Source: a virus. Taken from it: a stretch of DNA of 31,140 bases. Where the stretch lies: positions 1 to 31,140 of the IMG/VR virus record IMGVR_UViG_3300032668_000097. One strand, given 5' to 3'. The position numbers and the translations under genes were made by a program. Under the pieces are notes generated by a model that was not told the origin of the DNA, ran no database searches, and worked only from the letters and a program-made list of their open reading frames with translations. Positions 556-29,076 of this stretch are shown here, in pieces (the first letter of the stretch is position 1; each line of letters opens with the position of its first letter).

Positions 556-1908
556 CTATATAGCGTGTATGGTAAATGTTTTCTTTTTAGGTATTCCATG
601 AACAGCACCTATGATGTCCTTACGATCATCAGCTTGTGGTCCATCGATAAAATAAGGAATAGTTCCAGTTAATAATTCCCATCCAGCCATAAAGAAAGGA
701 ATGTTGTCTGAATAAGCATTGTTACAAGCTAAATCCCACATATCACCTTCAAGGAACATACAAGAGCCTTGGCAGATTTGTAACACAGGGCAATTAGGGC
801 AATCTTTACGATGGCTCCAGTGTGTGCTTGTATTTAATTTAATGTTTTCAAAGTCAGATATATGTCCAATTAAATGACTTTTACCATTAAAACTTGTAGC
901 TACATTAGAAGCATTTTGACAAGTTAATACATTGCCTTTTAAATCTACTGCAAGCTTACTAGGATCATCCATACCGCATTTTTGTCCTAGTGATGAAGCA
1001 GGTCTTTTGTTTAAGATTGAGTTAACAAATCCTTTGACTTTAGTATTTAAAATATCAAAGTTCTGTGCTTCACCTTTACGTATTTCATTAAAGGAATTGT
1101 TTCTAAATTCTATATGATCAGCTTGATCTGACATACAAACAGCTTTACCGCCTTCATCATAAGGATCAATAAATGCACCTTCACCAATAGGTACATCAAA
1201 TCCTAAACGATCTTTAAACCATTTACTTATTGCAGAACGGCTTGGATTATCTTTATGGATCATGGCATTAAAACTCATACGGCCTTTAGGACCTAATCTA
1301 TTCCATAAATCCATAATCATTGCAAATTGTTCTGGGTTATCAAATGGATCAACGCCTCTTACATGATAACCTGGACCATCATGAGAAACACCCACACCAA
1401 AGTTCATTTCATCTAGCCATTGGTTTTTTTCTAAATCTAATATTGTGCCATTAGTAACAATATTAAATTGAGCATTAGGATATAAAGCTCTAATGCCCTC
1501 AGCTAAAGGTTTTAATGTTTTCCAATACACAAAGGGTTCACCACCCCAAAACTCTACTCTTAGATCTGACCCATCACCCTTTAACCAAGTAGGTAATGTT
1601 TCTAAAAATGGAGCTACATCGTCTTTTGTGGTTTCATCAGCATGAGGTACAAAACGTTGATTGCAATATGTACACTCATAATTACAAGATAAACCTAATT
1701 GTATTTTAAGTACTTGAATATCTTTATTTTTGCCTGCAGGTGAGTCAACACTTGTTTTAACAGGGAAATCTTTATATTCTTGTGCTGGTCTTCCAAAGTC
1801 AATAATTGTACCTTGTTCGTCAAATACCATAGAAGACATATTGTCATACCAAAAAACTTTTTGTTCGTTGGTAATAGGTTTAATTGCCGTAATTCTAAAT
1901 TTAGCCAT
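556..1908 (-). CDS. radical SAM/SPASM protein, putative peptide-maturing enzyme
   Basis: This 450-residue protein has the radical SAM motif CxxxCxxC at Cys75, 79 and 82 (SCNYECTYC), which binds the SAM-cleaving [4Fe-4S] cluster, and the SAM-binding GGEP motif at 122-125. A complete SPASM C-terminus follows: Cys311-x13-G-x4-Cys330, then Cys370-x2-Cys373-x5-Cys379-x3-Cys383 and Cys395, seven cysteines for two auxiliary clusters. This architecture belongs to anaerobic sulfatase-maturating enzymes and to RiPP maturases that install thioether or C-C crosslinks on peptides. No sulfatase is present. Residues 1-65 precede the core and could contact substrate. The gene overlaps the 2OG-oxygenase-like gene by one base (TAATG) and lies about 1.4 kb downstream of three Cys-tailed proteins in the same gene string. 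Fold and clusters are well supported; the substrate is inferred. Confidence 0.88.
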   Translation of the reverse strand: MAKFRITAIKPITNEQKVFWYDNMSSMVFDEQGTIIDFGRPAQEYKDFPVKTSVDSPAGKNKDIQVLKIQLGLSCNYECTYCNQRFVPHADETTKDDVAPFLETLPTWLKGDGSDLRVEFWGGEPFVYWKTLKPLAEGIRALYPNAQFNIVTNGTILDLEKNQWLDEMNFGVGVSHDGPGYHVRGVDPFDNPEQFAMIMDLWNRLGPKGRMSFNAMIHKDNPSRSAISKWFKDRLGFDVPIGEGAFIDPYDEGGKAVCMSDQADHIEFRNNSFNEIRKGEAQNFDILNTKVKGFVNSILNKRPASSLGQKCGMDDPSKLAVDLKGNVLTCQNASNVATSFNGKSHLIGHISDFENIKLNTSTHWSHRKDCPNCPVLQICQGSCMFLEGDMWDLACNNAYSDNIPFFMAGWELLTGTIPYFIDGPQADDRKDIIGAVHGIPKKKTFTIHAI

Positions 1909-2549
1909 TATAGAGTAGCGTAATTTCTTACTGTTTCTTTTACCTTGATATTGGTAACAAGGGCTATCGTATCTACCCTTCCTAAATTAATCTCGGATGT
2001 ATGAAAAAGATATGAAGGATGTATTAAAAAAGTACCAGGCACAGGGCTTACTTCATGCATGACTGAGTGATTTAAAAATCTACTTCTCATAGCTATAGGA
2101 TCAATGATATGCAATCTGCTGCCTGCTGGTTTTTGATGTGTATTATTGCCAGGGAAGTCAGTAACATCAATATGGCACCATAATACTGCTACATAATCTA
2201 CACTTCTATGTACATGGGTTTTAGCAAATTCACCAGGACCAAACTTTCTTAAAGCTGTTGTGGCTTCAAATTCTACATTTTCTGGATCATAAAAGTTTTC
2301 TGCTTTTGCCATTTCAATCATGCGTGATTTAAGCATTTGTTTAAATTTTTGACATGATTCTCTATCATCTAACAATAAGTTATAAGATACTTCTGGAGAT
2401 TTACGCATAGCTACAGGAACATGAGCTTCAGGTCTTGATGCCTCATATTCAAATCCAATATTAATTAAATCAGTTAAAAATTCTTGTGTTACTTCAGGTG
2501 CTATTGGCTCATAAATGATATTAGTTGCCCATAGTTTTAATAAGCTCAT
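1908..2549 (-). CDS. putative 2OG-Fe(II) oxygenase-like protein (TIGR02466-like)
   Basis: The 213-residue product resembles the small putative 2OG-Fe(II) oxygenases grouped as TIGR02466. The central part has THVHRSVDYVAVLWCHID (His112, His114, then a beta strand), and the C-terminal part has PGTFLIHPSYLFHTSEIN followed by R191, as expected for the distal iron-binding His (His183) and the 2OG-binding Arg. A textbook HxD/E pair is not obvious; the acidic ligand could be Asp118, or the site may be altered. The stop overlaps the radical SAM start by one base, so the two enzymes are probably made together. If active, it would hydroxylate a protein or small substrate; the neighbouring fibre-like proteins are the obvious candidates, by inference. 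A different, canonical 2OG oxygenase lies at 28573-29076. Confidence 0.6.
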   Translation of the reverse strand: MSLLKLWATNIIYEPIAPEVTQEFLTDLINIGFEYEASRPEAHVPVAMRKSPEVSYNLLLDDRESCQKFKQMLKSRMIEMAKAENFYDPENVEFEATTALRKFGPGEFAKTHVHRSVDYVAVLWCHIDVTDFPGNNTHQKPAGSRLHIIDPIAMRSRFLNHSVMHEVSPVPGTFLIHPSYLFHTSEINLGRVDTIALVTNIKVKETVRNYATL

Positions 2550-2557
2550 TTAAATTC

Positions 2558-3325
2558 CTATACAAGCGTTACAGTTTTTGTAGATACTCCAGCCCAATAT
2601 TTATAGCCCATTTTAATGGTAACTACTTCACCTGCATTTAAGCCTTGTGTATTTAATTGGAATGTTTGTCCATTTATAGCACGACTTCTATTTAATACGC
2701 CATTATCTGCTGAAAGAAATACAGTAGTGTTTTTAGGAGCATTGACTGTATAAGTTGTAGATTGACCAGCTGTTAAACTAGATTCACCTGCAAGTGATAC
2801 AGGTAACCAAGCATCAAGGTAATTTTTCATTGATGTAATAGATAAAGCAGATGGTGTTGAACCATTTACTGTAACAGAAGCATTTGGAGAATCACGATAC
2901 ACTATAGTGATTTCATCTATTGTACAGTTTGCTGAAGGAGTTAAAATGTATAAAAATGCATAAGAACCATAATTGTTACTAATGACAGAAAATGGACTTC
3001 CTGATAATTGTTTACCTTCTGTAGTAGGTACGCTTGTATATGTTTCGTTAGGATTGACTCTATTCGGAAATGAGAGTTGTGTAGTTTCAACCATTTGAAT
3101 AGGTGTATCACTTTTCCATAAAGATTCTGGATAAAATGCTATACATCCATGATCTTGGCCATATTTAGAAACAATATTAGACAAACTAAAAGTGCCTGAA
3201 AAATTAATATCAGCAATACTTTGTGAGTTTGTTGTATCGGTGATTGATATAGTTAGAGTATCACCTGAAATACTAATCTCATTTTTTGTGATAGTTCTAT
3301 TTGTTGTTAGCTTTAAAAATTCCAT
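2558..3325 (-). CDS. beta-rich putative tail/adhesin protein
   Basis: The 255-residue protein is rich in Ser, Thr, Asn and Val with alternating beta-strand patterns and no membrane segment or signal peptide. The last 75 residues (from AGESSLTAGQSTTYTV) look like an Ig-like beta-sandwich, as in phage adhesins and fibres. It has two isolated cysteines (in DHGCIAF and SANCTID) and no Cys tail. It lies between the three Cys-tailed proteins and the two modifying enzymes, with gaps of about 10 bases on both sides, so it belongs to the same transcript. It could be a receptor-binding or accessory fibre protein, or a partner of the Cys-tailed proteins. The structural class is inferred from composition and context only. 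Confidence 0.6.
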   Translation of the reverse strand: MEFLKLTTNRTITKNEISISGDTLTISITDTTNSQSIADINFSGTFSLSNIVSKYGQDHGCIAFYPESLWKSDTPIQMVETTQLSFPNRVNPNETYTSVPTTEGKQLSGSPFSVISNNYGSYAFLYILTPSANCTIDEITIVYRDSPNASVTVNGSTPSALSITSMKNYLDAWLPVSLAGESSLTAGQSTTYTVNAPKNTTVFLSADNGVLNRSRAINGQTFQLNTQGLNAGEVVTIKMGYKYWAGVSTKTVTLV

Positions 3326-3336
3326 ATATTATCCTT

Positions 3337-3618
3337 TTAACAATTACATCTACAATTACAATTATTCGTTCCTATTCCATATACGCCACCACCAGTATCA
3401 TACCAATACCAAGCACCAAATGGAAGATTACCACCATTACCGCAGTTTCCTACACTAAAATTACTTATGCTTAATGCACCTGCATAATTACCTAAATCAT
3501 TAGTATACTGACTTAGTTTGGTTGGTCTTCCTGCCACTTGTGTCCATGCAAAAGTTGAGCTTGATAATGTAGTTCCATCACCAAAAACTATACTACCATT
3601 TGTGAGCTGCGTTGACAT
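3337..3618 (-). CDS. small fibre-like protein with C-terminal alternating Cys tail, copy 3
   Basis: This 93-residue protein is the last of three tandem paralogues. The N-terminal block MSTQLTNGSIVFGDGTTLSS and the block PTKLSQYTNDLGNY are shared with the other two copies; the NG...F.D..L pattern also occurs at the start of the fibre protein encoded at 6285-7247. The middle (residues 55-85) is Gly/Trp/Tyr-rich and differs from the other copies, with an extra Cys59. The protein ends TNNCNCRCNC, Cys at 87, 89, 91 and 93, with the stop codon directly after the last Cys. I infer a virion-attached N-terminal part and an exposed Cys tail that could bind metal, form disulfides, or be crosslinked by the SPASM enzyme downstream. 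Function unknown. Confidence 0.82.
   Translation of the reverse strand: MSTQLTNGSIVFGDGTTLSSSTFAWTQVAGRPTKLSQYTNDLGNYAGALSISNFSVGNCGNGGNLPFGAWYWYDTGGGVYGIGTNNCNCRCNC
3340..3363 (-). repeat. Cys-tail coding hexamers (copy 3)
   Basis: Eight codons encoding NCNCRCNC directly before the stop at 3337-3339. The units are mostly AAT-TGT. Confidence 0.75.
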
Positions 3619-3627
3619 AGATAACCT

Positions 3628-3912
3628 TTAGCAATTACACTGACAATTACAATTTGGAGAATATGGATATAATGTAGATCCATTCCATCCTACAAGTATT
3701 TGTGCATCAGATGGGGAACTACTATTCCAATAAGCTACTGTAGTAGTATCTATATTGCTTGCTGTTAACCAACCACCATAATTACCCAAATCATTGGTAA
3801 ATTGACTTAATAAAGTTGGAACACCAGTAATAGAGCCTTGAGCAACTGTATTAGTGCTTAGTGTGGTACTGTCTCCAAATACAACTGATCCATTTGTTAA
3901 TTGCGTTGACAT
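3628..3912 (-). CDS. small fibre-like protein with C-terminal alternating Cys tail, copy 2
   Basis: This 94-residue paralogue starts MSTQLTNGSVVFGDSTTLST, nearly identical to copy 3, and keeps PTLLSQFTNDLGNY. The middle is divergent and has no cysteine. It ends YSPNCNCQCNC with Cys at 88, 90, 92 and 94 and the stop immediately after. The tail residue between the second and third Cys is Gln here, Arg in copy 3 and Tyr in copy 1, so the C-x-C spacing is kept while one intervening residue varies. The gaps to the neighbouring genes are 9-10 bases, consistent with one polycistronic message. The pattern of a conserved anchor, a variable middle and a conserved Cys tail suggests diversified surface proteins that share one kind of tail processing (inference). 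Confidence 0.82.
   Translation of the reverse strand: MSTQLTNGSVVFGDSTTLSTNTVAQGSITGVPTLLSQFTNDLGNYGGWLTASNIDTTTVAYWNSSSPSDAQILVGWNGSTLYPYSPNCNCQCNC
3631..3654 (-). repeat. Cys-tail coding hexamers (copy 2)
   Basis: Eight codons encoding NCNCQCNC directly before the stop at 3628-3630. The final Cys codon is TGC rather than TGT, and Gln is CAG, so the repeat is not a perfect microsatellite. Confidence 0.75.
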
Positions 3913-3922
3913 TTATTTTCCT

Positions 3923-4192
3923 TTAGCAATTACAATAACAATTACAATTACAATTAGATACTTGCAAACCAATTTGAGATCCATTCCAAGTAAAATTAAC
4001 ATGAGGATTGGATGCTCCACCTACACCACTAGTATTTACACTTGTAACCCAATTTTCATAGTTACCTAAATCATTAGTGAATTGACTCAATTTTGTACTT
4101 GGGTTTGTAACATTTGCATAGGGCAAATTAGCACTAGATAATGAGGTGCCATCTCCAAAAGTTACATTACCATTACCAATATTTGCTGACAT
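3923..4192 (-). CDS. small fibre-like protein with C-terminal alternating Cys tail, copy 1
   Basis: The 89-residue first copy has the same plan: MSANIGNGNVTFGDGTSLSS, then PSTKLSQFTNDLGNY, a variable middle without cysteine, and a longer tail SNCNCNCYCNC with five cysteines (81, 83, 85, 87, 89) up to the stop. Its ATG overlaps the stop of the upstream fibre gene by one base (TAATG), coupling its translation to a 330-residue fibre protein. The tail is encoded by near-perfect AATTGT hexamers, so N-C units could be gained or lost by slippage without breaking the frame. That all three copies keep the frame, the spacing and the terminal Cys argues that the tail is selected. Function unknown; candidate substrate of the radical SAM/SPASM enzyme. 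Confidence 0.82.
   Translation of the reverse strand: MSANIGNGNVTFGDGTSLSSANLPYANVTNPSTKLSQFTNDLGNYENWVTSVNTSGVGGASNPHVNFTWNGSQIGLQVSNCNCNCYCNC
3926..3955 (-). repeat. Cys-tail coding hexamers (copy 1)
   Basis: Ten codons encoding NCNCNCYCNC directly before the stop at 3923-3925. This is one N-C unit longer than the other two copies, consistent with hexamer slippage or selection for length. Confidence 0.75.
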
Positions 4193-5184
4193 TATACAGT
4201 TCCGTAAGAAGTTACTGAAGCTTTAACTGTTAAATTTCCTGATGAGTCTAATTTAGCCACATTAGTGCCATTGTAATTAAAATATAAAGTTGTACCTGTA
4301 GGTGTTACTGACCAGCCACCTGGATTTGAAATAGATCCAGCTGGAGTAGCAGTAATTTGAGATACTACATAAGCAGTGGTAGCAATATTAACTGAATTAT
4401 CACCCGCAGGAGGTGTGGTGGCTACTGCACCAGCAAGTCCTGTCATAGTTGTACTTGGAGCTACTAATTGTGTATTGTTTACAGTATAAGTTCCTGTACC
4501 GCCAGAACCTGAAACAAAGCCTGTGATTTCTGTATTTGAGGATATGCCTGAGCCTGTCACACGTTGACCAATAAATATGACACCAGAGTTTACTGCGGTG
4601 ACATTTAAAGTCGTACCTGATGCACCAGATCCGTTACTAATACCACCTACAAAGGAAGCGGCTTTATAAGCACCAAGAACACCAGCGGCTAAGAAATTAC
4701 CTGTCTCAGTTACATTACCAGATACGGTTAAATTGCCATTGATTGTAAAATTACCCGCAGATCCTGTTTGTGCTGAGTAAAAACCTGTTCCTGTACCAGA
4801 TACATTATAAGCATCACAATAACATTGAGCGGTAGTTAAAGGTGGAATAACAAGAGATACTGAACCACCAGAAGCTGACATGGTGAGGTTATAGTTTGTA
4901 TTGTTGGTGATGATATAGAATTTATTGACTAAAGGAGCTATGATCGTAGAAGCAGTTGTTGGAGATCCACCTACTACAAGCACCATATTTCTAGCATCAT
5001 CAGATGTACCATTAAGGTTGGTAAGGGTATAAGTATTGGATGCTGGCATAGAAATACCATCAACACCTGTAATAGCTTGTTCTACAAGGTTCCAGTTTGT
5101 ATTGGTTGTATCACCCCATGTACCCGCTTGATCACCGTCACCGATTAGGGTTATTTTTAACGAGGTTGAGTAGGTTTCTGCCAT
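4192..5184 (-). CDS. tail fibre protein
   Basis: The 330-residue protein starts MAETYSTSLKITLIGDGDQA, followed by GTWGDTTNTNWNLVEQAITG. This N-terminal module is one I recognise from many phage tail-fibre proteins and presumably attaches to the virion or forms the trimer base. The rest is low-complexity, Gly/Ser/Thr-rich and beta-strand-like (GNFTINGNLTVSGNVTETGN and similar), typical of fibrous shafts. A good ribosome binding site (AAAGGA) lies 6-7 bases before the ATG. The gene directly precedes, and overlaps by one base, the first Cys-tailed protein, which suggests those small proteins assemble with the fibres. The receptor cannot be predicted. Confidence 0.8.
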   Translation of the reverse strand: MAETYSTSLKITLIGDGDQAGTWGDTTNTNWNLVEQAITGVDGISMPASNTYTLTNLNGTSDDARNMVLVVGGSPTTASTIIAPLVNKFYIITNNTNYNLTMSASGGSVSLVIPPLTTAQCYCDAYNVSGTGTGFYSAQTGSAGNFTINGNLTVSGNVTETGNFLAAGVLGAYKAASFVGGISNGSGASGTTLNVTAVNSGVIFIGQRVTGSGISSNTEITGFVSGSGGTGTYTVNNTQLVAPSTTMTGLAGAVATTPPAGDNSVNIATTAYVVSQITATPAGSISNPGGWSVTPTGTTLYFNYNGTNVAKLDSSGNLTVKASVTSYGTV

Positions 5185-5218: not shown

Positions 5219-6118
5219 TTATTGTGAATTATTTACCAATGTCCAAGTGTTTAAATCTGTGTTATTTACAAGCACCCAGCCAGTTGTATTGGAGTTATTT
5301 ACAGCATTCCAAGTAATAATGTCACGATCATCTATTGTGATCCATCCACGTTGGATAAGAAGGTCTAAAATACCTATATTTTCAAATACAGAGGCTATAA
5401 AGTTGGCTTTTATTGAAAGCACATCTTGTACTCCTATATTTTCAGAAATAGTATCTAAGAAGTTAGCTTGTACTGTATTAGAGTCATTAGCACCAAAGTT
5501 TTCAAAAATGGTAGCAAAGAATACGCTAATGATAGATTCTATATCGGCTAAACTAATTGCTTCAGCTACGCTTGATACAAATCCTGCACTTGCTGTTTCA
5601 ATTTCACCTACAGTAATGTTTTCACTGATGCTAGACTTAAATTGAGCAGTAATCGTAGGTGTATCGTTCCAATTGCTATTTTCAGTAATAGATGACTGGA
5701 ATTGAGCTGAAATTGCAATCACATCTGCCCATGTAGAATTCTCGGTAATAGAATCTAATGCGGCAAAGTAAACAGCATAAGTGTCAGCCATTGTAATATT
5801 CTCTGTATCAGAGACTGCAAATTGGGCTGTAATACTCTCAGAATCGTTCATAGTAACGTTTTCTGATATGGTTTGACCAAAAGTACTCACTTCACTATTT
5901 GAATCAGCCATAGTAAGGAATTCATTTAAACTTTCGTAGAATTGTCCACCTAACGCATTAATATCCACCATGTTGACATTTTCTGTCACAGATTGATTAA
6001 ATACAAATGCTTGGCTATTTGTATCAGCCATATTAATATTCTCTGTAAGGTTTAGAGAATAAGCATTACCACCTAAAGATGCATAAGGTGGTTGAGCAAA
6101 TGCGGCATACCCAAACAC
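5219..6118 (-). CDS. tail/adhesin protein with twelve 20-residue repeats
   Basis: The 299-residue product starts at a GTG that overlaps the upstream stop (TAGTG), with GAGG about 9 bases upstream. Residues 25 to about 264 are twelve tandem 20-residue repeats of the pattern [TSA]EN-x2-M-x-D-x7-F-x3-[IV]; for example TENINMADTNSQAFVFNQSV is followed by TENVNMVDINALGGQFYESL. Each repeat has acidic and hydrophobic residues at fixed places, which suggests a regular beta or solenoid shaft. The C-terminus has three W-x2-VNN units (TWNAVNNS, GWVLVNNT, TWTLVNNS). There are no cysteines. The position among fibre genes points to a virion appendage whose length follows the repeat number. The family is not one I can name. 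Confidence 0.75.
   Translation of the reverse strand: MFGYAAFAQPPYASLGGNAYSLNLTENINMADTNSQAFVFNQSVTENVNMVDINALGGQFYESLNEFLTMADSNSEVSTFGQTISENVTMNDSESITAQFAVSDTENITMADTYAVYFAALDSITENSTWADVIAISAQFQSSITENSNWNDTPTITAQFKSSISENITVGEIETASAGFVSSVAEAISLADIESIISVFFATIFENFGANDSNTVQANFLDTISENIGVQDVLSIKANFIASVFENIGILDLLIQRGWITIDDRDIITWNAVNNSNTTGWVLVNNTDLNTWTLVNNSQ
5327..6046 (-). repeat. twelve degenerate 60-base repeats encoding 20-residue units
   Basis: These lie within the adhesin-like gene. Units keep an exact 60-base period at protein level (ExN...D...F...I/V) but have diverged at DNA level; the last unit is the most degenerate. Confidence 0.7.
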
Positions 6119-8772: not shown

Positions 8773-10626
8773 TTATAATATTACCCATCGGCTACCTGAT
8801 GGAACTGTGACTGATTTACCTGTTGCAACTGTTATAGGGCCAACACTCATAGCGTTTTGACCTGACGCAATAGTATAACTTGTATTGACAGTATTTGCAT
8901 TAATTACTAATCCATTAGAGGCAACAATTTCAGGTGCTGTTAAAGCTCCAGTAGATGGATTGGCAGTAAAGCTTGTATTTATGTAATCTACTGTTGTAGT
9001 TCCACTAGAAGCCGACTGAAAGCCTACATTATAATTTGTATTACTTGTAGTAGAAGTAATAGTTAAGCCAGCGGTATTGGATACCCAAGTTGGAGGTGTG
9101 CCTGATCCGTTGGATTGAAGAATGTAGCCTGATGTTCCGTAAGATCCGTTAAACGCTACCGCATTACTTGGATTAACTGTAATAGCATCAGCTGAGTTAG
9201 CATTGGTTACAAAGTGAATAGAGTTAGAAGACCCTGTACCAATAGCTAAATCTGTACCTTGTGAGTATAAATAGACGTTATTGGCAGCACCTAAAGCACC
9301 TGTTCCTGAAAAGCCACTACTGTTAATACCAAAGTCACCAAAGTATGCGGCTGATGTAGCTAAGTTATTACTTACGATAAAGTCTGTAGAAGCAGTGTTA
9401 CCAGAATTGGTATTTTGTAAAACAATCTGATTATAGGAATTTACAGAGGAAGTAAATGATGCAAAGATGTTTGAATCAGAATATCCTAGTGTTCCATAAC
9501 TAAATGCACCAGCATTTAAAGAACCTGTAATCGTAGCATTAGCTGCAAAAGCAGGAGCTGTGACTGTGGTTCCGTTATAGGTAAATGTAGATGAGTTACT
9601 AAATGCGTTTGTACCATTACCATATGGCACATAACCCGCAGTTAAAGATGTAAGTCCTGTTCCGCCTGCAACTACAGGAAGTGTGCCTGCAGTTAATGCA
9701 TTAGGTGCGGTGGAATAAAGTGCATAGTTAGACGAGCCAAATGTAGTAAGACCTGTACCACCATAACCTGCTGCTATAGCTGTACCATTCCATACTGCGT
9801 TAGTAATCGTAGCATTATTAAAAGATGCATTTGTTGCACTAAAGTCAAACTCACCTGGTAAGAACGCATATTTAGTCCATGTACCCGCAGTCGTTGAGTT
9901 AGAAATTAAATATATAAAATCAGCACCACCAGATGGTACTGTATCTACAGTTGCAGAAGCATTATTTACAATTGTTAAAAGACCGCCAGCATCATTATCA
10001 AATATAAATGCAGCACCATTAGGTAAAGTAGTAGCATCTGGAAGTTGAAATGTTTGGGTTGTAGAACCTGTAAGTCTTTGGATATATGCAGATGCGGCTG
10101 TTAAAACAGTTGTAGATGCAGTAGAGACTGTAGCAGCATATCCAGCTAAAACATTATTTGCTGTGATATTTGAATTAGCATCACGCAAAACAACAGAGTT
10201 AATACCAGATGATGATGTGACCCCAGTACCACCATAAGATACGCCTACAGTCGTTCCTTGCCATGTTCCTGAGGCTATTGTGCCTAATGGGGAAACATTG
10301 CCTGAAGCGTCAAGATTAACTGATTTTTCTGCTGGATATGTAACGAATACGGAAGAACTATTTCCCACTAATGGGATTGCCGTGGTTGTTCCGTTGGAGT
10401 TTGATAAAACGGTTGTACGAGCTAGTTGATTTGGAGATCCAGTTGTAACTGTACCAAGACCCACCTCCCATGCTTGAGCTATGTTGTCATAGATCGTGTA
10501 GAAAGTGGTGTTATTACCAATAGTCGTGAAGGATTGGAAACCAGGTACTGCTCCGTTAAGCGTGAGCGTACCCGTACCACTAGTCGTGGTAGTTTCCTGG
10601 ACTCTATCCTTGACTACAAGAGCCAT
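8773..10626 (-). CDS. large tail fibre protein
   Basis: At 617 residues this is the longest fibre gene in the window. The N-terminal 100 residues (MALVVKDRVQETTTTSGTGT, then an AWEVGLGTV / LARTTVLSNSNG segment) form a module common to phage fibres that precedes the shaft. The shaft contains repeated YGGTG/GGTGL motifs (VSYGGTGVTSSSG, AGYGGTGLTTFG, VAGGTGLTSLTAGY), a known fibre repeat. The C-terminus is beta-rich and ends in SGQNAMSVGPITVATGKSVT with a final SRWVIL, typical of short trimer-closing tips. There is no enzymatic domain. It is probably a main side or tail fibre that attaches to the tail through its N-terminus. Confidence 0.8.
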   Translation of the reverse strand: MALVVKDRVQETTTTSGTGTLTLNGAVPGFQSFTTIGNNTTFYTIYDNIAQAWEVGLGTVTTGSPNQLARTTVLSNSNGTTTAIPLVGNSSSVFVTYPAEKSVNLDASGNVSPLGTIASGTWQGTTVGVSYGGTGVTSSSGINSVVLRDANSNITANNVLAGYAATVSTASTTVLTAASAYIQRLTGSTTQTFQLPDATTLPNGAAFIFDNDAGGLLTIVNNASATVDTVPSGGADFIYLISNSTTAGTWTKYAFLPGEFDFSATNASFNNATITNAVWNGTAIAAGYGGTGLTTFGSSNYALYSTAPNALTAGTLPVVAGGTGLTSLTAGYVPYGNGTNAFSNSSTFTYNGTTVTAPAFAANATITGSLNAGAFSYGTLGYSDSNIFASFTSSVNSYNQIVLQNTNSGNTASTDFIVSNNLATSAAYFGDFGINSSGFSGTGALGAANNVYLYSQGTDLAIGTGSSNSIHFVTNANSADAITVNPSNAVAFNGSYGTSGYILQSNGSGTPPTWVSNTAGLTITSTTSNTNYNVGFQSASSGTTTVDYINTSFTANPSTGALTAPEIVASNGLVINANTVNTSYTIASGQNAMSVGPITVATGKSVTVPSGSRWVIL

Positions 10627-10635
10627 TTAAGCTCC

Positions 10636-11244
10636 TTAACTTGTTGCTGTTGTTGAGTACGTTACCGAGACAGTATCACCAGCAGTTGTAACTTTAGCTA
10701 CAGAGAAAGCACCAGCTGAATATAATATACCACCCGTATTGCCTAAAGTACTTGTAGCACCAGAGCCAGTTACTAAGAAACAACCACCTACTGTACCACC
10801 TGCACCTGTGATGGTATATGTGATTGCAGTTGCTGTTGATGTAGTAACGTTAGAAGGTGAAGTACCTGTTGATGTAGCTGTAGCAAATACTGCTGTACCA
10901 CGCACTGCTGAACCAGTTACTGTATAAGCAGTAAATTCTGTCCAACCAGCGTGTGATGTCATTGTATCTGATGCTGCAAATGTTGGTGATGCACCTGAAA
11001 TAAGACCTAAGAATGGACCTACTGTAGTGTATGTACCAGATGTAGTAAGTAAAGTGTTTAGAAGAAGTTGTTTACCAACAGCATTTACTAGGTTAGGAAA
11101 CTGTTCTTCCCATTTTAAATTACCATTAGCATCACGACATTCAACTACGTAATGTCCTTCAATACCTACTGATTCATTGGAAATAGCATTAGCACCAAGA
11201 CTAATAACCGCTTGATCTCCAAATCCTTGTGATTCTTTTAACAT
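10636..11244 (-). CDS. virion structural protein, tail-associated
   Basis: The 202-residue protein starts MLKESQGFGDQAVISLGANA and contains HYVVECRDANGNLKWEEQFP, then LVNAVGKQLLLNTLL. That segment is shared by many uncharacterised phage structural proteins located just before the fibre genes. The rest is a Thr/Ser/Ala-rich beta region (TATAITYTITGAGGTVGGCF) resembling a bacterial Ig-like or fibre tip domain. The gap to the following fibre gene is only 9 bases. I infer a tail-tip or fibre-attachment role from position and composition. Confidence 0.65.
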   Translation of the reverse strand: MLKESQGFGDQAVISLGANAISNESVGIEGHYVVECRDANGNLKWEEQFPNLVNAVGKQLLLNTLLTTSGTYTTVGPFLGLISGASPTFAASDTMTSHAGWTEFTAYTVTGSAVRGTAVFATATSTGTSPSNVTTSTATAITYTITGAGGTVGGCFLVTGSGATSTLGNTGGILYSAGAFSVAKVTTAGDTVSVTYSTTATS

Positions 11245-13496: not shown

Positions 13497-13670
13497 TTAT
13501 TTGCTTCCTGGTTTTTGGTTGTGAGCACGTGCTAAGTTACGGCCTACAGCTTTCATTGCTTTGCCTGTAACGCCACCTTTAGCTAATTTAGTTTTCTTAC
13601 CATGATGCATATGTTTTTCGTGTTTGTGCACTTCAACATCAGCAATATGTTTAACTTCTTTTTTATCCAT
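13497..13670 (-). CDS. very small His/Lys-rich protein (57 aa)
   Basis: The product is MDKKEVKHIADVEVHKHEKH followed by MHHGKKTKLAKGGVTGKAMK and AVGRNLARAHNQKPGSK. GGAG precedes the ATG by about 6 bases, and the stop lies one base before the next start. The KHEKHMHHGKK segment and the LAKGGV motif recur in the neighbouring small proteins (for example MKKMAKGG in the 196-residue product), which supports a real gene. It has seven histidines in 57 residues, so it may bind metal or nucleic acid. Function unknown. Confidence 0.65.
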   Translation of the reverse strand: MDKKEVKHIADVEVHKHEKHMHHGKKTKLAKGGVTGKAMKAVGRNLARAHNQKPGSK

Positions 13671-15371: not shown

Positions 15372-15572
15372 TTACTTAGAGTAACCGCCACCACACATTT
15401 TTTCAACGATTTCATGGTGATGTTTGTGACCATGCATACCGCCATCGTGGTGTTTTAAGTGTTTTTCAACGTGTTCATGGTGATGAATATGACCGCCATG
15501 TGCGTGATGACCATCGTGATGCTTCATATGGTCTGCTACGTGTTCGTGATGATGTTTGTGACCGTGTTTCAT
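15372..15572 (-). CDS. extremely histidine-rich small protein (66 aa)
   Basis: Of 66 residues, 25 are histidine. Three repeats of about 21 residues are visible: HGHKHHHEHVADHMKHHDGH, HGGHIHHHEHVEKHLKHHDG and HGHKHHHEIVEKMCGGGYSK. A strong AAGGAG lies 6-7 bases before the ATG, so it is well translated. Family knowledge: such His-rich repeats usually bind Ni, Zn, Cu or Co ions, or act as pH-sensitive switches. It has one Cys near the C-terminus. It lies among Lys/Gly-rich small proteins of the structural module, so it may be packaged with DNA or buffer metal during assembly (inference). Confidence 0.75.
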   Translation of the reverse strand: MKHGHKHHHEHVADHMKHHDGHHAHGGHIHHHEHVEKHLKHHDGGMHGHKHHHEIVEKMCGGGYSK

Positions 15573-15582
15573 ATATTGCTCC

Positions 15583-15786
15583 TTAAATAAATTTACCTTT
15601 TGTTATACCACGTTTTTCAATACCATGACCTCTAACCTTACCACCTTTAGCTTTTTTAACTACAGGCCCCATATCAACTTCACCAACACCTTTTGGTACT
15701 GGATGAGTTTGAGTAGGTAATGCTTTAGTTTCTGGTGACATATCACCAGCTTTAACTATTGGAACAGGTTTAATATCTGATGCCAT
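15583..15786 (-). CDS. small basic protein with KRGxTKGK C-terminus (67 aa)
   Basis: The product starts MASDIKPVPIVKAGDMSPET and has a Pro-rich, probably extended N-terminal half. The basic C-terminus KKAKGGKVRGHGIEKRGITK ends GKFI. The ending GIEKRGITKGKFI is clearly related to GIAKRGHTKGKYC at the end of the 196-residue protein encoded just upstream, so the two are paralogous at their C-termini. I recall a shared C-terminal IAxRGxTKGK signature in small marine-phage proteins. The conserved tail may be a targeting or capsid-binding signal; this is inference. Confidence 0.65.
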   Translation of the reverse strand: MASDIKPVPIVKAGDMSPETKALPTQTHPVPKGVGEVDMGPVVKKAKGGKVRGHGIEKRGITKGKFI

Positions 15787-15788
15787 GA

Positions 15789-16379
15789 TTAACAGTATTT
15801 ACCTTTTGTGTGACCACGTTTAGCAATACCGTCAGCAACCTTAGCATAGCCACCTTTACGCATAGGTTTTACATCTTTAGGAGCAACTGTTTTACCAGAA
15901 TCACCCAAGTTGTGACCTTTTGTATGACCACGTTTTTGAACTGCTGATTCACCGTGTTTTGTTAATTTGTTAGAACCTTTTTCAACATCTTCTGACATTG
16001 ATTTAGGACCCATTGTTTCTTTTTCTTTAAACATTTTAGTTTTACCACCTTCTGCGTGTTTATGAACTTTACCACCGTGCTTAAGATTTAATCCACGTGT
16101 GTGACCAGATTTTTGAACAGCGTGTTCACCATGTTTTAATGGTCTTTCACCTGCTTCAATTGCTGGATCTTCTGTTGGGCCACCTTTAGCCATTTTCTTC
16201 ATGTGTGATTTACCACCATGCTTCATACCAACGCCACCTGGACCACCCATACCAACTGGTGGAACACCTGGAACTGGAGATGCTTGTGGAGGAACCATAG
16301 GTGTACGAGCCATTGGAGCACGCATTGGAGCTCTTACTGGAACTGGTACTGGTACTATTTTTGTTCTTGTTTTTGCCAT
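15789..16379 (-). CDS. basic repeat protein with HTKG motifs (196 aa)
   Basis: A Pro/Val/Met-rich N-terminus (IVPVPVPVRAPMRAPMARTP) is followed by Gly/Lys/His-rich repeats: KHGGKSHMKKMAKGG, then LKHGEHAVQKSGHTRGLNLK, TKHGESAVQKRGHTKGHNLG and finally VADGIAKRGHTKGKYC. The repeated HGExAVQKxGHTxG unit occurs twice and a shortened form ends the protein. It is very basic and probably disordered. Its C-terminus is shared with the 67-residue neighbour 2 bases downstream. The features fit an internal or DNA-associated virion protein, but no function is known. Composition makes homology searches unreliable. Confidence 0.65.
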   Translation of the reverse strand: MAKTRTKIVPVPVPVRAPMRAPMARTPMVPPQASPVPGVPPVGMGGPGGVGMKHGGKSHMKKMAKGGPTEDPAIEAGERPLKHGEHAVQKSGHTRGLNLKHGGKVHKHAEGGKTKMFKEKETMGPKSMSEDVEKGSNKLTKHGESAVQKRGHTKGHNLGDSGKTVAPKDVKPMRKGGYAKVADGIAKRGHTKGKYC

Positions 16380-16398
16380 GTTATTTACCTTTTAAATG

Positions 16399-16926
16399 TT
16401 AGTTACAATTCCATCTTTTTAGAGATGCTGCTTTACGAGTAGGTCTGCCTTTTTCATCTTTCATAGGACCTGGCATTCCACTCATTCTAGCACAAAATGA
16501 TCTTTTGCGTGCACCTCCTTGCGGCTGAGGCGCTTTTAAGTGACTACCAGTTTCCCTATTGTATTTAGCACGACCTTTAGCTGTAAGTCCAGCACCTTTG
16601 GACACTGGTAATTTCTCACCACGTCCAACAGATAATGAAACTCCACCTTTTTTCATCTTAGCTGTCTTGGCAGATTCTTTAAATGCTTTAGCAGTTGGAG
16701 CACCTTTAGCTCCTGGTTTACGCATATGTTCACCACTACCGTGAGCTATACGCTCCTGTTTAGCGTGAATGTTTGCATAAAGGCCGCCATATTTAAATTT
16801 CTTACCTTTGTCAGCTTCGGCAAAGTCTTTACCTACAGATTGGGGAATACCTACTTTTTTAGCAAAGGCTTTTGAATGAGCCACTGCTTCCATGAGTCTA
16901 TGTTGTTTTGCTGATTTACTGGGCAT
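16399..16926 (-). CDS. two-part basic protein, C-terminal DUF6321-like domain
   Basis: The 175-residue product has an N-terminal part (MPSKSAKQHRLMEAVAHSKA, FAKKVGIPQSVGKDFAEADK) seen alone in other phages. A linker follows, and then a C-terminal domain GEKLPVSKGAGLTAKGRAKY, NRETGSHLKAPQPQGGARKR, SFCARMSGMPGPMKDEKGRP with a Trp-Asn-Cys end. The second part matches what I know as DUF6321, a small basic domain of phages. The gene therefore looks like a fusion of two usually separate pieces. It overlaps the upstream membrane-protein gene by 11 bases. Three Cys residues are present. A nucleic-acid-binding virion role is plausible but unproven. Confidence 0.7.
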   Translation of the reverse strand: MPSKSAKQHRLMEAVAHSKAFAKKVGIPQSVGKDFAEADKGKKFKYGGLYANIHAKQERIAHGSGEHMRKPGAKGAPTAKAFKESAKTAKMKKGGVSLSVGRGEKLPVSKGAGLTAKGRAKYNRETGSHLKAPQPQGGARKRSFCARMSGMPGPMKDEKGRPTRKAASLKRWNCN

Positions 16927-18751: not shown

Positions 18752-18890
18752 AATATATCCTTATGCAAAAGTCCTCTTATCAATCATTGCATTGTCTGCT
18801 GGGGCAGTCCGATAAGAGTAATCACCCAGATATAATATTCTTGCATAAAATGCTTGAAATTGCAACAAATATCTATTAATATTGCAAACT
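18752..18890. promoter_or_regulatory. divergent intergenic region with putative promoters
   Basis: This is the longest non-coding stretch in the window and lies between divergent genes, so it must drive both the plus-strand glycosylation island and the second minus-strand structural unit. A TATAAT (18831-18836) is a good -10 for plus-strand transcription but has no clear TTGACA at the usual spacing. A second pair, TTGAAA (18854-18859) with TAATAT (18877-18882), has 17-base spacing but would give an almost leaderless message. On the minus strand TATTAT (around 18833-18838) is a possible -10. A small inverted repeat gcat-aaa-atgc (18843-18853) may be an operator. Promoter positions are tentative. 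Confidence 0.55.
18774..18818. repeat. nested inverted repeat in the divergent region
   Basis: Perfect 8-base arms CTCTTATC (18774-18781) and GATAAGAG (18811-18818) enclose 29 bases that hold a second small hairpin, CTGC-TGGG-GCAG. Transcribed leftward, it would form a structured 5' leader of the MARST gene, ending 22 bases before its start. It lacks a U-tract, so it is not a simple terminator. It may be an RNA stability or control element, or a protein-binding site. Confidence 0.6.
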
Positions 18891-20465
18891 ATGAGAGCAT
18901 ATCCAGAGCAGGTTTTACACCAATATAATCAAGCATTTTCCTTGAAATTACAAGGTAAAGTCCAAGAAGCATTAACTCAATGTGAGTCTATTTTAAAGAT
19001 TCATCCAACTTATTCTTTAGCCCTTCAGCTCATAGGCATAATATTTGCAGAAGTCAAGAACTATCCCATGTCTTTAGAATACTTTACAAGAGCCATGAAG
19101 CATGATAGGAAGAATGCGGCTATTTATAGTAATCGTGGCAATGTTTACCAAGATACCAAACAATATGACTTGGCTTTAGCTGATTTTGATCGTGCCATAA
19201 GTATCAAAAGAGACTTTGTTGAGGCTCATTATAATAAAGGCAATTGTTGTAAAGAGATGAATCAATATGAAAAAGCTATAGAATGCTACAAAAGAACACT
19301 AGTCTTTAATCCAAAATACAAGGATGCCTATACAAATATGGGTACTTGTTATCAAAATTTACAACAGTTTGATAAGTCAGTTGAATGTTACGATAAGACG
19401 ATTGAGATCAATCCACAAGACTGGATGGCTTATAACAATAAAGGTTATGCATTACATGTATTAATGAACCTAGACGAGTCTATTAAAACATATGATCAAG
19501 CTATATCATCTAATCCAGATAACCCAGATCCTAAGTTTAATAAAGGACTTGTAGAGCTTTTAAAGGGTGATTGGGAAAAAGGTTGGGAAGGACATGAAGT
19601 TAGATGGACTAATCGTTTTTCTCCAGTTAAATTGCCTAAACTTTGGAAGGGTGAGGATCTAACAGATAAAACAATCTTTATTCATCACGAACAAGGTATT
19701 GGTGATACGATCCAATTCTGTCGTTATCTTAAGCTTTTAAAAGCTAAAAAGATTATTGTAGCTGTTAAGCCAGAAGCTTTTGCCTTATTAAAATCCATGC
19801 CTGAAATAGATGAGATCTATGATGACTTATCTAAAGTAAATGAGAATGATTATCATTATCAATCACCATTTATGTCATTGCCTTATATATTTAAAACAAG
19901 ACCTAACAACATTCCGCATGATGTTCCTTATCTATTTGCACCAGAAGATCGTGTAGCTTATTGGAAAGATAAGTTAAAGGATGATAAGAAGTTTAAAGTA
20001 GGACTTGTATGGTCTGGTGGATTTAGAGCAGATCAGCCAGAATTATGGGCTGTTAATAATAGACGTAATGTTCCATTAGATAAGTTAGCTTCATTCCAAA
20101 ATGAAAACATATCATTTTACAGTTTACAAAAAGGTGAGTTTGCTGAAGCTGAATTAAAGAACTCTAAAGTATGGAATATGATTGATTATACTTCTGAGTT
20201 ACAAGACTTCTCAGATACTGCTGCATTGATTGAAAATCTTGATCTTATAATCTCTGTAGATACATCGACTGCACACGTAGCTGGTGCTCTAAACAAACCT
20301 GTATGGATGATGAATCGATTTGACACATGCTGGAGATGGTTAACAGAAGGCAACAAAACAGATTGGTATCCAAGTATGACTATCTATAGACAGAATAGTT
20401 TCAACAATTGGTATAACGTGATTAACAATATTGCAATAGACCTACATGCACTTTCCAGAAGATAA
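18891..20465 (+). CDS. TPR-repeat glycosyltransferase (GT9/GT41-like)
   Basis: The product is about 524 residues. The N-terminal half has six to seven TPR units with the consensus YNKGN...YDLALADFDRAI (AIYSNRGNVYQDTKQYDLAL, AHYNKGNCCKEMNQYEKAIE and others). The C-terminal half is a glycosyltransferase fold with GIGDTIQFCRYLKLL, KVGLVWSGG, a SLQKGE strand and DTAALIENLDLIISVDTSTAHVA split over the nucleotide-binding region, as in TPR-linked GT9/GT41-like proteins. It probably transfers a sugar from a nucleotide donor to a protein or glycan; the TPRs would bind the partner. I chose ATG 18891; an in-frame TTG at 18882 is possible, and neither has a clear ribosome site. It is the first gene of the plus-strand island. 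Confidence 0.82.
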   Translation: MRAYPEQVLHQYNQAFSLKLQGKVQEALTQCESILKIHPTYSLALQLIGIIFAEVKNYPMSLEYFTRAMKHDRKNAAIYSNRGNVYQDTKQYDLALADFDRAISIKRDFVEAHYNKGNCCKEMNQYEKAIECYKRTLVFNPKYKDAYTNMGTCYQNLQQFDKSVECYDKTIEINPQDWMAYNNKGYALHVLMNLDESIKTYDQAISSNPDNPDPKFNKGLVELLKGDWEKGWEGHEVRWTNRFSPVKLPKLWKGEDLTDKTIFIHHEQGIGDTIQFCRYLKLLKAKKIIVAVKPEAFALLKSMPEIDEIYDDLSKVNENDYHYQSPFMSLPYIFKTRPNNIPHDVPYLFAPEDRVAYWKDKLKDDKKFKVGLVWSGGFRADQPELWAVNNRRNVPLDKLASFQNENISFYSLQKGEFAEAELKNSKVWNMIDYTSELQDFSDTAALIENLDLIISVDTSTAHVAGALNKPVWMMNRFDTCWRWLTEGNKTDWYPSMTIYRQNSFNNWYNVINNIAIDLHALSRR

Positions 20466-21204
20466 TCTTTACCTTGTAGATGGAGGTATTGGAGACTTCC
20501 TCCAATTTGTGCCATTTATGCTTCAATATAAGCGTAGATACTTTGTTTTAACGCATTTTAAAGGTGCTAAAGAGCTTATGTTAGCTTTAAATGTCATGCC
20601 TGATACGTTAATGTATTACTCTACAGAACCTGAAAAAGTAGAGAAAATTAAACAAATTGCACTCCATAATACCATCAATCAATGTCCAAGACATTTTTAC
20701 TTCTACGGTAATCCATTCCCAAAACAAAAGCCATTATTTGATAATGATAAAAAGACTATTGGTGTTCATCTAAATGGAAGTAAGTTCTCTTTAGAATGGC
20801 AAATAGCCCATAATATGATTACTAAATCTATTCCTTCAAAGATTATAGAGTCTTTTAAAGATTACAATGTGATTGTATTTGGATTGCCTGAAGACTTAGA
20901 AGGTTTAGAAGAGTCTGATCATGTGAAGTTTGTTTGTTATAAAGATATAGCCAAAAGCTTTGCTTATGTTGAACAGTGTGATTATGTGGTGGCTGCAGAT
21001 AGTTCTGTTAAAACCATGAGCTCTATGTTACGCATTCCTACATTCGTATGGATGGCAGATAACGAAGATCCATTTAGAGATAAGATCTTTATTGATCAAT
21101 ATGTCAAAGATGGCATTATGAAAACATTCAAATATAAAAATGCTTTTGATGATATGGATGAAGGCATCAAGCAAACCATGGAGTTTTTAAATGAATCCAA
21201 ATAA
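20446..21204 (+). CDS. GT9-like (heptosyltransferase-type) glycosyltransferase
   Basis: The 252-residue protein starts MHFPEDNLYLVDGGIGDFLQ; the GGIGDFLQF motif (13-21) is the N-terminal signature of ADP-heptose:LPS-type transferases. The C-terminal half has IGVHLNGSKFSLEWQIAH, YNVIVFGLPEDLEG and YVVAADSSVKTMSSMLRIPT, the donor-binding strand-loop-helix with a conserved D-S-S. It is shorter than cellular heptosyltransferases (about 320-350), so it is minimal or acts with the neighbouring transferase. It overlaps the TPR gene by 20 bases and the FkbM gene by 14 bases, so all three are co-translated. The acceptor could be host LPS or a virion protein. Confidence 0.75.
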   Translation: MHFPEDNLYLVDGGIGDFLQFVPFMLQYKRRYFVLTHFKGAKELMLALNVMPDTLMYYSTEPEKVEKIKQIALHNTINQCPRHFYFYGNPFPKQKPLFDNDKKTIGVHLNGSKFSLEWQIAHNMITKSIPSKIIESFKDYNVIVFGLPEDLEGLEESDHVKFVCYKDIAKSFAYVEQCDYVVAADSSVKTMSSMLRIPTFVWMADNEDPFRDKIFIDQYVKDGIMKTFKYKNAFDDMDEGIKQTMEFLNESK

Positions 21205-21928
21205 AGTAGTTAATTCACAATATGGTCAAATCATCATAAATACAAACGATAAGGGAGTTGGAGCTTCTATATCTGAAGGATCATATTTTGAGCCTGAAAA
21301 TATAAACATTATGATTGGAGTGATCAACACACTTCTACAAAGAAAAGACAAAATTACATTCTATGATGTAGGTGCTAACATTGGAACACATACGTTAGCC
21401 ATAGCTAGTACATTCAAAAATAAAGTATTTATAAGATCATTTGAAGCTCAAAGACAAGTTTATTATATGTTATGCGGAACTATTGCTTTAAATGGATTAC
21501 GCAATGTATATGCTCACCATTGTGCCGTTGGTGGCTATTATGGTTTGATTGATATTGATTTACCAGATTACAATGTAAGACAAAACTTTGGTGGTCTTGA
21601 GATTAAAGAGATAGATAAATCAGATAATCAAGATATGATTTTTAATAGTTCAGAAAACATTGAAATGATGAGATTAGATCAGTTTCATGAACCTATTGAT
21701 TTCATCAAAATGGATATTGAGGGAATGGAGGAAGAGGCTTTATTTAGATCCTCGCTTATGCTTGAGGAGTATATGCCTGTTTGCTACGTGGAAATATTTA
21801 AATCTAATCAAGATCGCATTTTTAGCTTCTTTAAAAGCCTTGGCTATAAATGCTATTCAAATGGTCAAGATATGCTTGCTATGCCGACTGGCATGGATGT
21901 AACTATTCTAAATTTTAATCCTGTATAA
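21191..21928 (+). CDS. FkbM family SAM-dependent methyltransferase
   Basis: The 245-residue protein has the methyltransferase motif I FYDVGANIG (57-65), an acidic post-motif at FEAQ (84-87), and DFIKMDIEGMEEEAL (170-184), the FkbM signature. FkbM enzymes O-methylate sugars or polyketides; next to two glycosyltransferases, methylation of a sugar is most likely. The gene overlaps the preceding one by 14 bases and its stop is directly followed by a hairpin (21930-21948). Such cassettes in aquatic phages are thought to alter surface glycans. Target unproven. Confidence 0.85.
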   Translation: MNPNKVVNSQYGQIIINTNDKGVGASISEGSYFEPENINIMIGVINTLLQRKDKITFYDVGANIGTHTLAIASTFKNKVFIRSFEAQRQVYYMLCGTIALNGLRNVYAHHCAVGGYYGLIDIDLPDYNVRQNFGGLEIKEIDKSDNQDMIFNSSENIEMMRLDQFHEPIDFIKMDIEGMEEEALFRSSLMLEEYMPVCYVEIFKSNQDRIFSFFKSLGYKCYSNGQDMLAMPTGMDVTILNFNPV

Positions 21929-28572: not shown

Positions 28573-29076
28573 TTATCTAAATGCGGGTCCCATAGCCCAA
28601 GCCACCGCTGTAAATCTCTCACCAGAGGTAACAGCAGTCACTCGATGTGGTAACACCGATGGAAAAACGATAATACTTCCCTTAGGAAGTTTTGGAATTG
28701 GAGAGTCCAAGTCCTTTAGTTCTAGTAAGCCACCTTCATAATCATCTGGGTTTGACAGAATAAGTATTGAGGAGAGTTTGCGTTGATTGCCAAACTCGTC
28801 TGGATTGTAAGAGTCACTATGCCAATCATAGTGGCCACCTACTTTATAATGTCCGATCTGGACTGGTTCTATATAAGATGTTGCATAATTCCAATTTGCT
28901 TGGATATTGGCAAGTCCTATATAACTCTGCATTATACATCCAACTGGCTCCATTGGGTTAACAAATACAATATTTGTTTGACGTTTGTCTGGATTTATGT
29001 ATGTTTCATTTGCATGCATAAAACCACCGTCTTTACCTTTAGACCAGTCAATTTCTTTTAGGATAAGATCACACAT
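28573..29076 (-). CDS. 2OG-Fe(II) dioxygenase, PKHD/P4H type, start uncertain
   Basis: The 167-residue protein has the iron motif HxD at His86-Ser-Asp88 (YDWHSDSY), distal His144 (LPHRVTAV) and the 2OG-binding Arg154 (ERFTAVAW), so all catalytic residues are present. PKHD enzymes hydroxylate prolines or other residues in proteins and are frequent in marine phages. The reading frame stays open upstream of ATG 29076 and encodes TRVWWQERIISED, which fits the usual N-terminus of this family. No ATG, GTG or TTG lies between the TAG at 29130-29128 and ATG 29076, only ATT codons, one of which (29121) would overlap the terminase stop. Substrate unknown. Confidence 0.87.
   Translation of the reverse strand: MCDLILKEIDWSKGKDGGFMHANETYINPDKRQTNIVFVNPMEPVGCIMQSYIGLANIQANWNYATSYIEPVQIGHYKVGGHYDWHSDSYNPDEFGNQRKLSSILILSNPDDYEGGLLELKDLDSPIPKLPKGSIIVFPSVLPHRVTAVTSGERFTAVAWAMGPAFR

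Follow-up and report, generated by a model that had tools for sequence, protein, structure and literature searches.

A widespread phage radical SAM/SPASM enzyme family paired with Cys-Asn-rich tail-fiber tips, a candidate maturase-substrate system

Which bacteria a phage can enter is determined by its receptor-binding tips, generally regarded as plain protein, with chaperones and bound metal ions as additions. Radical SAM genes are known from phages, where they also occur among fiber genes, and radical SAM/SPASM maturases acting on Cys-rich substrates are known as well. The locus analyzed here raises the question of what an enzyme of the peptide-maturase type does in a phage late-gene run, adjacent to small proteins that end in alternating Asn and Cys residues. 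The sequence that was analyzed, hereafter the window, is a viral record of 31,140 bases that encodes a phage capsid protein and a TerL closest to those of an environmental phage and Pelagibacter phages. We propose that the phage-encoded maturase probably modifies the CxC tips of the phage's own tail fibers.

The enzyme gene and its closest relatives

The open reading frame (ORF) at positions 556-1908 (minus strand) starts with ATG, encodes 450 amino acids (aa), and contains no internal stops, whereas stop codons are found throughout the plus strand of this interval. Profile searches, alignments, and fold comparison jointly assign the product to the radical SAM/SPASM enzymes of the phrog_1802 family ("radical SAM domain-containing protein"; E = 2.9e-68, 232 bits), as a putative maturase. 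The preliminary description of this DNA had recognized a complete gene of this type with ten cluster cysteines, and both points stand, with the strand now specified. The CxxxCxxC motif (C75, C79, and C82; positions 1663-1686, minus strand) provides the ligands of the SAM-binding [4Fe-4S] cluster, and the SPASM region (C311 to C395; positions 724-978, minus strand) contains seven cysteines for the auxiliary clusters, spaced C311-x13-G-x4-C330, C370-x2-C373-x5-C379-x3-C383, and C395. All ten are invariant in two family alignments of 24 and 40 members, and the only other cysteine in the protein, for a total of 11 by direct reading, is C258.

The enzyme passes the SPASM model TIGR04085 (32.7 bits against a cut-off of 27) and falls slightly below the cut-off of the Pfam Radical_SAM model (25.7 against 29.5). 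The best-scoring NCBIfam equivalog is the PapB ranthipeptide maturase, NF047865 (E = 6.1e-16), yet the score of 58.6 bits compares with a cut-off of 340; the models for anSME (TIGR03942, cut-off 349) and for the QhpD comparison (TIGR03906) give 41 and 43 bits, respectively, and for no known maturase does the enzyme come near the equivalog cut-off. The same holds for its relatives, which mostly score best against peptide-maturase models and likewise remain far under the equivalog cut-offs.

The AlphaFold2 model of the enzyme is reliable (pLDDT 92.5, pTM 0.91) and adopts the TIM-barrel-like radical SAM fold, with many radical SAM structures matched at Z > 10. The nearest solved folds are CteB (Z = 24.1 over 366 residues), ChlB (21), anSMEcpe (21), and TigE (18); Foldseek ranks anSMEcpe (E = 1.3e-13), CteB, and ChlB at the top, and the best sequence-profile matches are TigE (1.6e-20) and CteB (2.8e-14). 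Taken together, the nearest folds and sequences, CteB, ChlB, anSMEcpe, TigE, SkfB, and SuiB, are all peptide or protein maturases, in agreement with the initial assignment to the peptide-maturase-type SPASM enzymes; closest relatives acting on small molecules or tRNA, an outcome set in advance as evidence against that assignment, were not encountered. The N-terminal 65 residues (positions 1714-1908, minus strand), an extension initially suggested as a possible substrate-binding part, are present and predicted to form three beta-strands and no helix. No helix precedes residue 95, so that the model does not show the winged helix of a canonical RRE, and the superposition on CteB begins at residue 1.

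CteB (the SCIFF maturase, 5wgg; the title of this entry names thioether formation) and ChlB (9gm3) differ from the window enzyme in that they act on small precursor peptides of bacteria and in that the predicted N-terminal part of the phage protein lacks helices. PapB shares with it the radical SAM and SPASM domains and the Cys-rich nature of the substrate, which is putative for the phage enzyme; the portion of the PapB study consulted reports that Cys-Xn-Asp with n of 0-6 is accepted (PMC9413430), whereas the substrate proposed here is a viral fiber tail rich in N-C rather than Cx3D/E. A plain Cx3D/E ranthipeptide was considered and rejected, given that Asp or Glu occupies position +4 of only 55 of 936 cysteines.

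A late-gene cassette with three CxC-tailed proteins

In line with the late-operon setting initially described, the enzyme gene belongs to a compact minus-strand run of late genes separated by gaps of -1 to 11 nt. The run is headed by a tail-fiber-like protein of 330 aa (positions 4192-5184, minus strand; phrog_38233 tail fiber, 2e-8), the stop codon of which overlaps the start of P0005. Three small proteins follow, and the NCNCxCNC tails noticed at the outset are indeed the ends of these adjacent ORFs: P0005 (89 aa, positions 3923-4192, minus strand) ends with NCNCNCYCNC, P0004 (94 aa, 3628-3912, minus strand) with NCNCQCNC, and P0003 (93 aa, 3337-3618, minus strand) with NCNCRCNC. The proposed modification sites are the CxC tails themselves (positions 3926-3955, 3631-3654, and 3340-3363, respectively, all on the minus strand). 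Downstream are the genes for protein X (255 aa, positions 2558-3325, minus strand), protein Y (213 aa, 1908-2549, minus strand), and the radical SAM enzyme, after which comes an ORF of 158 aa that has a lipobox-like start.

Searches of P0003-P0005 against Pfam and NCBIfam yielded no match, nor did P0005 alone as a query against phage records. A profile of the small proteins hits the C-terminal ends of 205-483-aa fibers (2e-14 for L128, 3e-13 for L199, 6e-11 for L158, among others), which suggests that the window carries free-standing fiber tips. For protein X, Foldseek matches to the model are weak and all-beta, and VIA aligns the C-terminal ~80 residues with Ig-like domains, among them that of intimin (Z = 8.2 over 79 residues). 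Protein Y resembles 2OG-Fe(II) oxygenases (phrog_81, E = 3.4e-10); the window copy scores 22.1 bits against PF13759, under the cut-off of 27, whereas the copy in the related locus L051 passes with 60.4 bits. A second 2OG-Fe(II) oxygenase (PF13640, 3.3e-15) is encoded far from the cassette (positions 28573-29076, minus strand). In Rhodobacteraceae of several genera (L272-L281), two 2OG-oxygenase-like genes flank a CxC ORF with an NCNCxCRC end and the enzyme.

Genomic pairing of the enzyme with CxC-tailed fibers

The link between the enzyme and the CxC tails was examined in both directions. In the forward direction, we collected the best 80 of 126 enzyme relatives from viral contigs and the best 80 of 123 from bacterial genome contigs. 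A locus was considered usable if it extended at least 4 kb upstream and at least 1.2 kb downstream of the enzyme; 55 of the 160 were left out for short flanks, and 21 of the remaining 105 were left out as duplicates (enzymes 90% alike), leaving 84 non-redundant loci. A partner was defined as a same-strand ORF near the enzyme, called mechanically, with at least 4 Cys in 20 residues including at least 2 CxC; this rule replaced a stricter first filter under which overlapping ORFs in G+C-rich bacterial DNA caused many cases to be missed. Among these 84 loci, 70 encode such a partner, and the number is still 70 when [NADT]C[NADT]C is additionally required. The opposite strand, used as a control, gave 2 of 84 with the latter condition and 19 of 84 without it, and in enzyme-free loci, a comparable CxC-rich ORF is present on either strand in 3 of 49. 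When the listed loci were clustered at 60% identity, 28 of the 34 clusters included at least one member with a partner.

The partner rule failed in 14 of the 84 loci. In six of these (L047, L051, L057, L059, L073, and L078), a weaker, Cys-rich homolog is encoded immediately after the enzyme, and L292 has a short NCNCNC tail. No CxC partner was seen near the enzyme in the other seven (L230, L268, L278, L283, L284, L286, and L290). Three of them, L283, L284, and L290, encode radical SAM relatives (371-382 bits) beside an ORF of 770-800 aa, and seem to represent a different substrate or context.

In the reverse direction, viral contigs were scanned for DNA able to encode NCNCxCNC, which yielded at least 119 stretches. 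In 54 of those listed, the longest ORF covering the site reads the motif, and 43 of these loci, often short, hold the enzyme; searching the whole records added six, for a total of 49 of 54. In the five others (L151, L164, L167, L181, and L187), the enzyme was not found in the whole record. At 15 listed sites, another ORF is longer, and the enzyme is present in five; where the motif DNA is not read by any ORF, it is present in 1 of 50 (L100, with the pattern near a contig edge). Whole-record searches of out-of-frame and antisense controls detected the enzyme in 0 of 22. The P0001 query gave no match in 16 further records, and the same query does recover known cases.

The third comparison relied on the module common to the small proteins of the window (GDGTxLSS...PTxLSQFTNDLGNY). 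With the small proteins minus their tails as the query, the best 80 of 104 relatives were taken, of which 66 have a complete in-frame ORF; nine without an in-frame ORF and five with cut ORFs were left out of the count. Among these 66 listed module fibers, 21 have both the tail and the enzyme, 44 have neither, one has the tail only, and none has the enzyme only; the 21 positive cases come partly from contigs already included in the forward count. The single tail-only case, L370, lies 445 nt from the contig end; both L370 and L151 carry CxC ORFs in records from which the enzyme is absent. After removal of ORFs at least 80% alike, the corresponding counts are 11, 29, 1, and 0 (Fisher p = 3.8e-9, a value that overstates the independence of these related loci). 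The 44 module proteins with neither feature are fiber-like ORFs that are long (544-2,875 aa) and have different C-terminal ends. Thus, in this sample, proteins with the module accompany the enzyme only if they are CxC-tailed. The initial suggestion that the enzyme is connected to the NCNCxCNC tails is accordingly borne out by all three genome comparisons, and the once "unusual" phage enzyme is better described as a member of a widespread phage family with a recurrent fiber-CxC partner.

The partner ORFs match tail-fiber PHROGs or collagen-like fibers. Among the 70 partners in the listed loci, 48 end no more than 12 residues after their last CxC, and in the others, the Cys stretch is followed by a Hint domain (8), by an SKI[IV]C domain (11), or by something else (3). 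The residue between the cysteines is restricted: it is Asn in 234, Ala in 88, and Asp in 35 of 389 CxC, that is, one of these three in 357. The pairing is carried by the cultured Achromobacter phages JWF and 2-1 and by isolate genomes (Limnohabitans and others), so that it is testable at once. In phage JWF, the CxC fiber is gp28 and the enzyme is gp30, two genes downstream, near the central tail fiber J; in Limnohabitans parvus, the cassette comes after the "central tail fiber J" gene. In the JWF gp28 protein (L082, positions 9793-11244; ..NCNCDCNCNCSCFPAGT..), a Hint domain lies directly behind the NCNC/CxC string, as it does in L018, L240, L247, L285, L288, L289, and L291. Hedgehog and intein relatives of Hint domains cut themselves off. 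If the phage Hint domains self-cleave too, the string would become C-terminal in these proteins as well; the SKI[IV]C domain might, more speculatively, free the string in the same way.

Substrate, chemistry, and alternatives

The recurrence of this enzyme beside Cys-Asn-tailed fibers in many related phages suggests that host-contacting fiber tips are chemically rebuilt, and genomic evidence strongly supports the CxC tail as the substrate. As in RiPP systems, the maturase gene is linked in genomes to a candidate substrate that carries a repeated core motif. The other cassette proteins are less constant among the 84 listed loci: protein Y is encoded within 7 kb of the enzyme in 53, protein X in 45, and either in 68. 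The absence of Y near the enzyme in 31 and of X in 39 counts against a fiber-tip maturase, and the 11 of 70 partners with the Cys stretch in mid-protein, before the SKI[IV]C domain, count against reading it as a C-terminal tip.

The tails could instead be self-folding, metal- or Fe-S-binding fiber tips, with the enzyme modifying another residue or protein, such as X. Thiophilic metals could bind alternating cysteines, X is a second conserved protein of the cassette, and the mid-protein position of the Cys stretch in part of the family would fit. This alternative nevertheless appears unlikely because, in the listed loci, the enzyme tracks the CxC tail (70 of 84) more closely than it tracks X (45) or Y (53), none of the 44 tail-less fibers with the same module has the enzyme, and simple metal binding would not be expected to need Asn, Ala, or Asp between the cysteines.

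It is less probable still that the short NCNCxCNC ORFs are precursors of free, secreted RiPPs made by the phage, not parts of the virion. Three tandem ORFs of about 93 aa next to a RiPP-type maturase do resemble multiple precursors, and the distant loci L099, L113, and L126 pair weaker radical SAM relatives with small, non-fiber Cys-rich ORFs. However, the small proteins correspond, by profile, to the C-termini of fibers of 205-483 aa, in most relatives the tail is borne by a fiber or a collagen-like fiber, and inspection of the cassette neighbors in the window revealed no evident exporter or protease.

An anSME-like conversion of the tail cysteines to formylglycine could be considered, with anSMEcpe (4k37), another protein-acting SPASM-type radical SAM enzyme, as the top Foldseek match and with JWF gp30 deposited under such a name in one record. 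The target motif of anSME is CxA/PxR. This motif is present in only 2 of 77 partners, the TIGR03942 score is far from its cut-off, and no sulfatase was seen beside the gene in the window, so that we reject this chemistry as highly improbable. An auxiliary metabolic gene for a small molecule (of the PQQ, heme, or queuosine type), as phage radical SAM genes have often been read, for instance, in the accessible parts of studies of Lake Baikal and the Tasman Sea (PMC7678222, PMC7150976), is the most improbable reading of all and is likewise rejected, given that the closest relatives are peptide or protein maturases, that the gene tracks a structural-protein motif, and that neither NCBIfam profiles nor sequence or fold comparison support a queuosine or cofactor role.

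Returning to a maturase that acts on fiber tips, thioether cross-links may well be the product, if somewhat short of probable: they are the likeliest outcome in view of the links formed by related enzymes, the restricted x positions, and the precedent of QhpD and QhpG. According to the part of that work consulted, QhpD introduces three Cys-Asp/Glu thioethers into a protein subunit and functions together with the oxygenase QhpG (PMC7876137). The QhpD/QhpG/QhpC system of quinohemoprotein amine dehydrogenase thus resembles the cassette in combining a radical SAM enzyme, several Cys thioethers, and a co-encoded oxygenase; it differs in that QhpG is a flavoprotein rather than a 2OG enzyme, in that the acceptors are Asp or Glu, and in the lack of a link to viruses. 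Other radical steps on the tail, such as epimerization or Cys oxidation, would be compatible with the same genomic pattern.

Under this scenario, the enzyme would be expressed late and would bind newly made fiber-tip proteins (in the window, P0003-P0005). SAM would be cleaved at the C75/C79/C82 cluster, a hydrogen would be abstracted from the residue adjoining a Cys, mostly Asn, then Ala or Asp, and, with the use of the SPASM clusters, thioethers from Cys sulfur to carbon would be closed along the N-C-N-C string. The neighboring oxygenase-like protein Y may hydroxylate the same tip or assist the reaction. The expected outcome is a compact, cross-linked fiber tip, resistant to proteases and redox changes, that contacts the host. 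The analysis establishes the enzyme family, the invariance of the cluster cysteines, the predicted maturase-type fold, the close pairing with CxC tails in either direction, and the location of these tails on tail-fiber proteins; direct action on the tail, the thioether chemistry, the role of the oxygenase, and the benefit for host recognition are inferred.

More broadly, and with some hesitation, we consider it possible that, in many tailed phages, a radical SAM maturase converts the N-C-N-C ends of fibers into polycyclic, thioether-linked tips, which would be the first case of a virus particle modified by a radical SAM enzyme; that in some of them a Hint (or perhaps SKI[IV]C) domain right behind the string self-cleaves, freeing the string as the fiber end; that a 2OG oxygenase adds hydroxyls; and that the rigid tip serves in receptor binding or envelope piercing. 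If so, phages finish their fiber tips by a chemistry familiar from natural products of the peptide class, host range may hinge on a modification that the sequence does not reveal, and recombinant fibers from these phages may lack activity without co-expression of the enzyme.

With an enzyme of a known kind, what appears new is the class of substrate, fiber tips: our search of the literature, largely outside subscription papers and preprints, found no published description of this enzyme paired with them. In pelagimyophages, cassettes of radical SAM genes have been reported within the host recognition cluster, among tail-fiber genes, and the passages seen do not give a substrate, a Cys motif, or a mechanism (PMC7029224). 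The phrog_1802 family is filed under "other", its function and partner unstated; the pairing offers a candidate substrate for a phage gene family whose members have so far been labeled just "radical SAM" or interpreted as auxiliary metabolic genes.

Several further features were observed in distant loci and elsewhere in the window. In L113, L099, L126, and L136, more remote relatives of the enzyme (44-168 bits) are accompanied by small Cys-rich ORFs that are not fibers, and L113 combines four radical SAM ORFs with a 79-aa ORF that contains NCNCNCNC near its end; these loci may be RiPP clusters of the ordinary kind in which the same motif occurs. In the window, a 299-aa protein (positions 5219-6118, minus strand) consists of degenerate repeats of ~30 aa (SxTENxxMADxxxxxAQF) and is probably tail-associated. 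An opposite-strand cassette (positions 18882-21928, plus strand) encodes a 527-aa TPR-like protein, a 252-aa ORF, and a methyltransferase (phrog_8156, 3.1e-19). The late region also includes small His-/Lys-rich ORFs (positions 15372-15572, 13497-13670, and 15583-16926, all on the minus strand), one of which has 66 aa, mostly His and Lys (MKHGHKHHHEH...); they may be virion proteins that bind metals or DNA.
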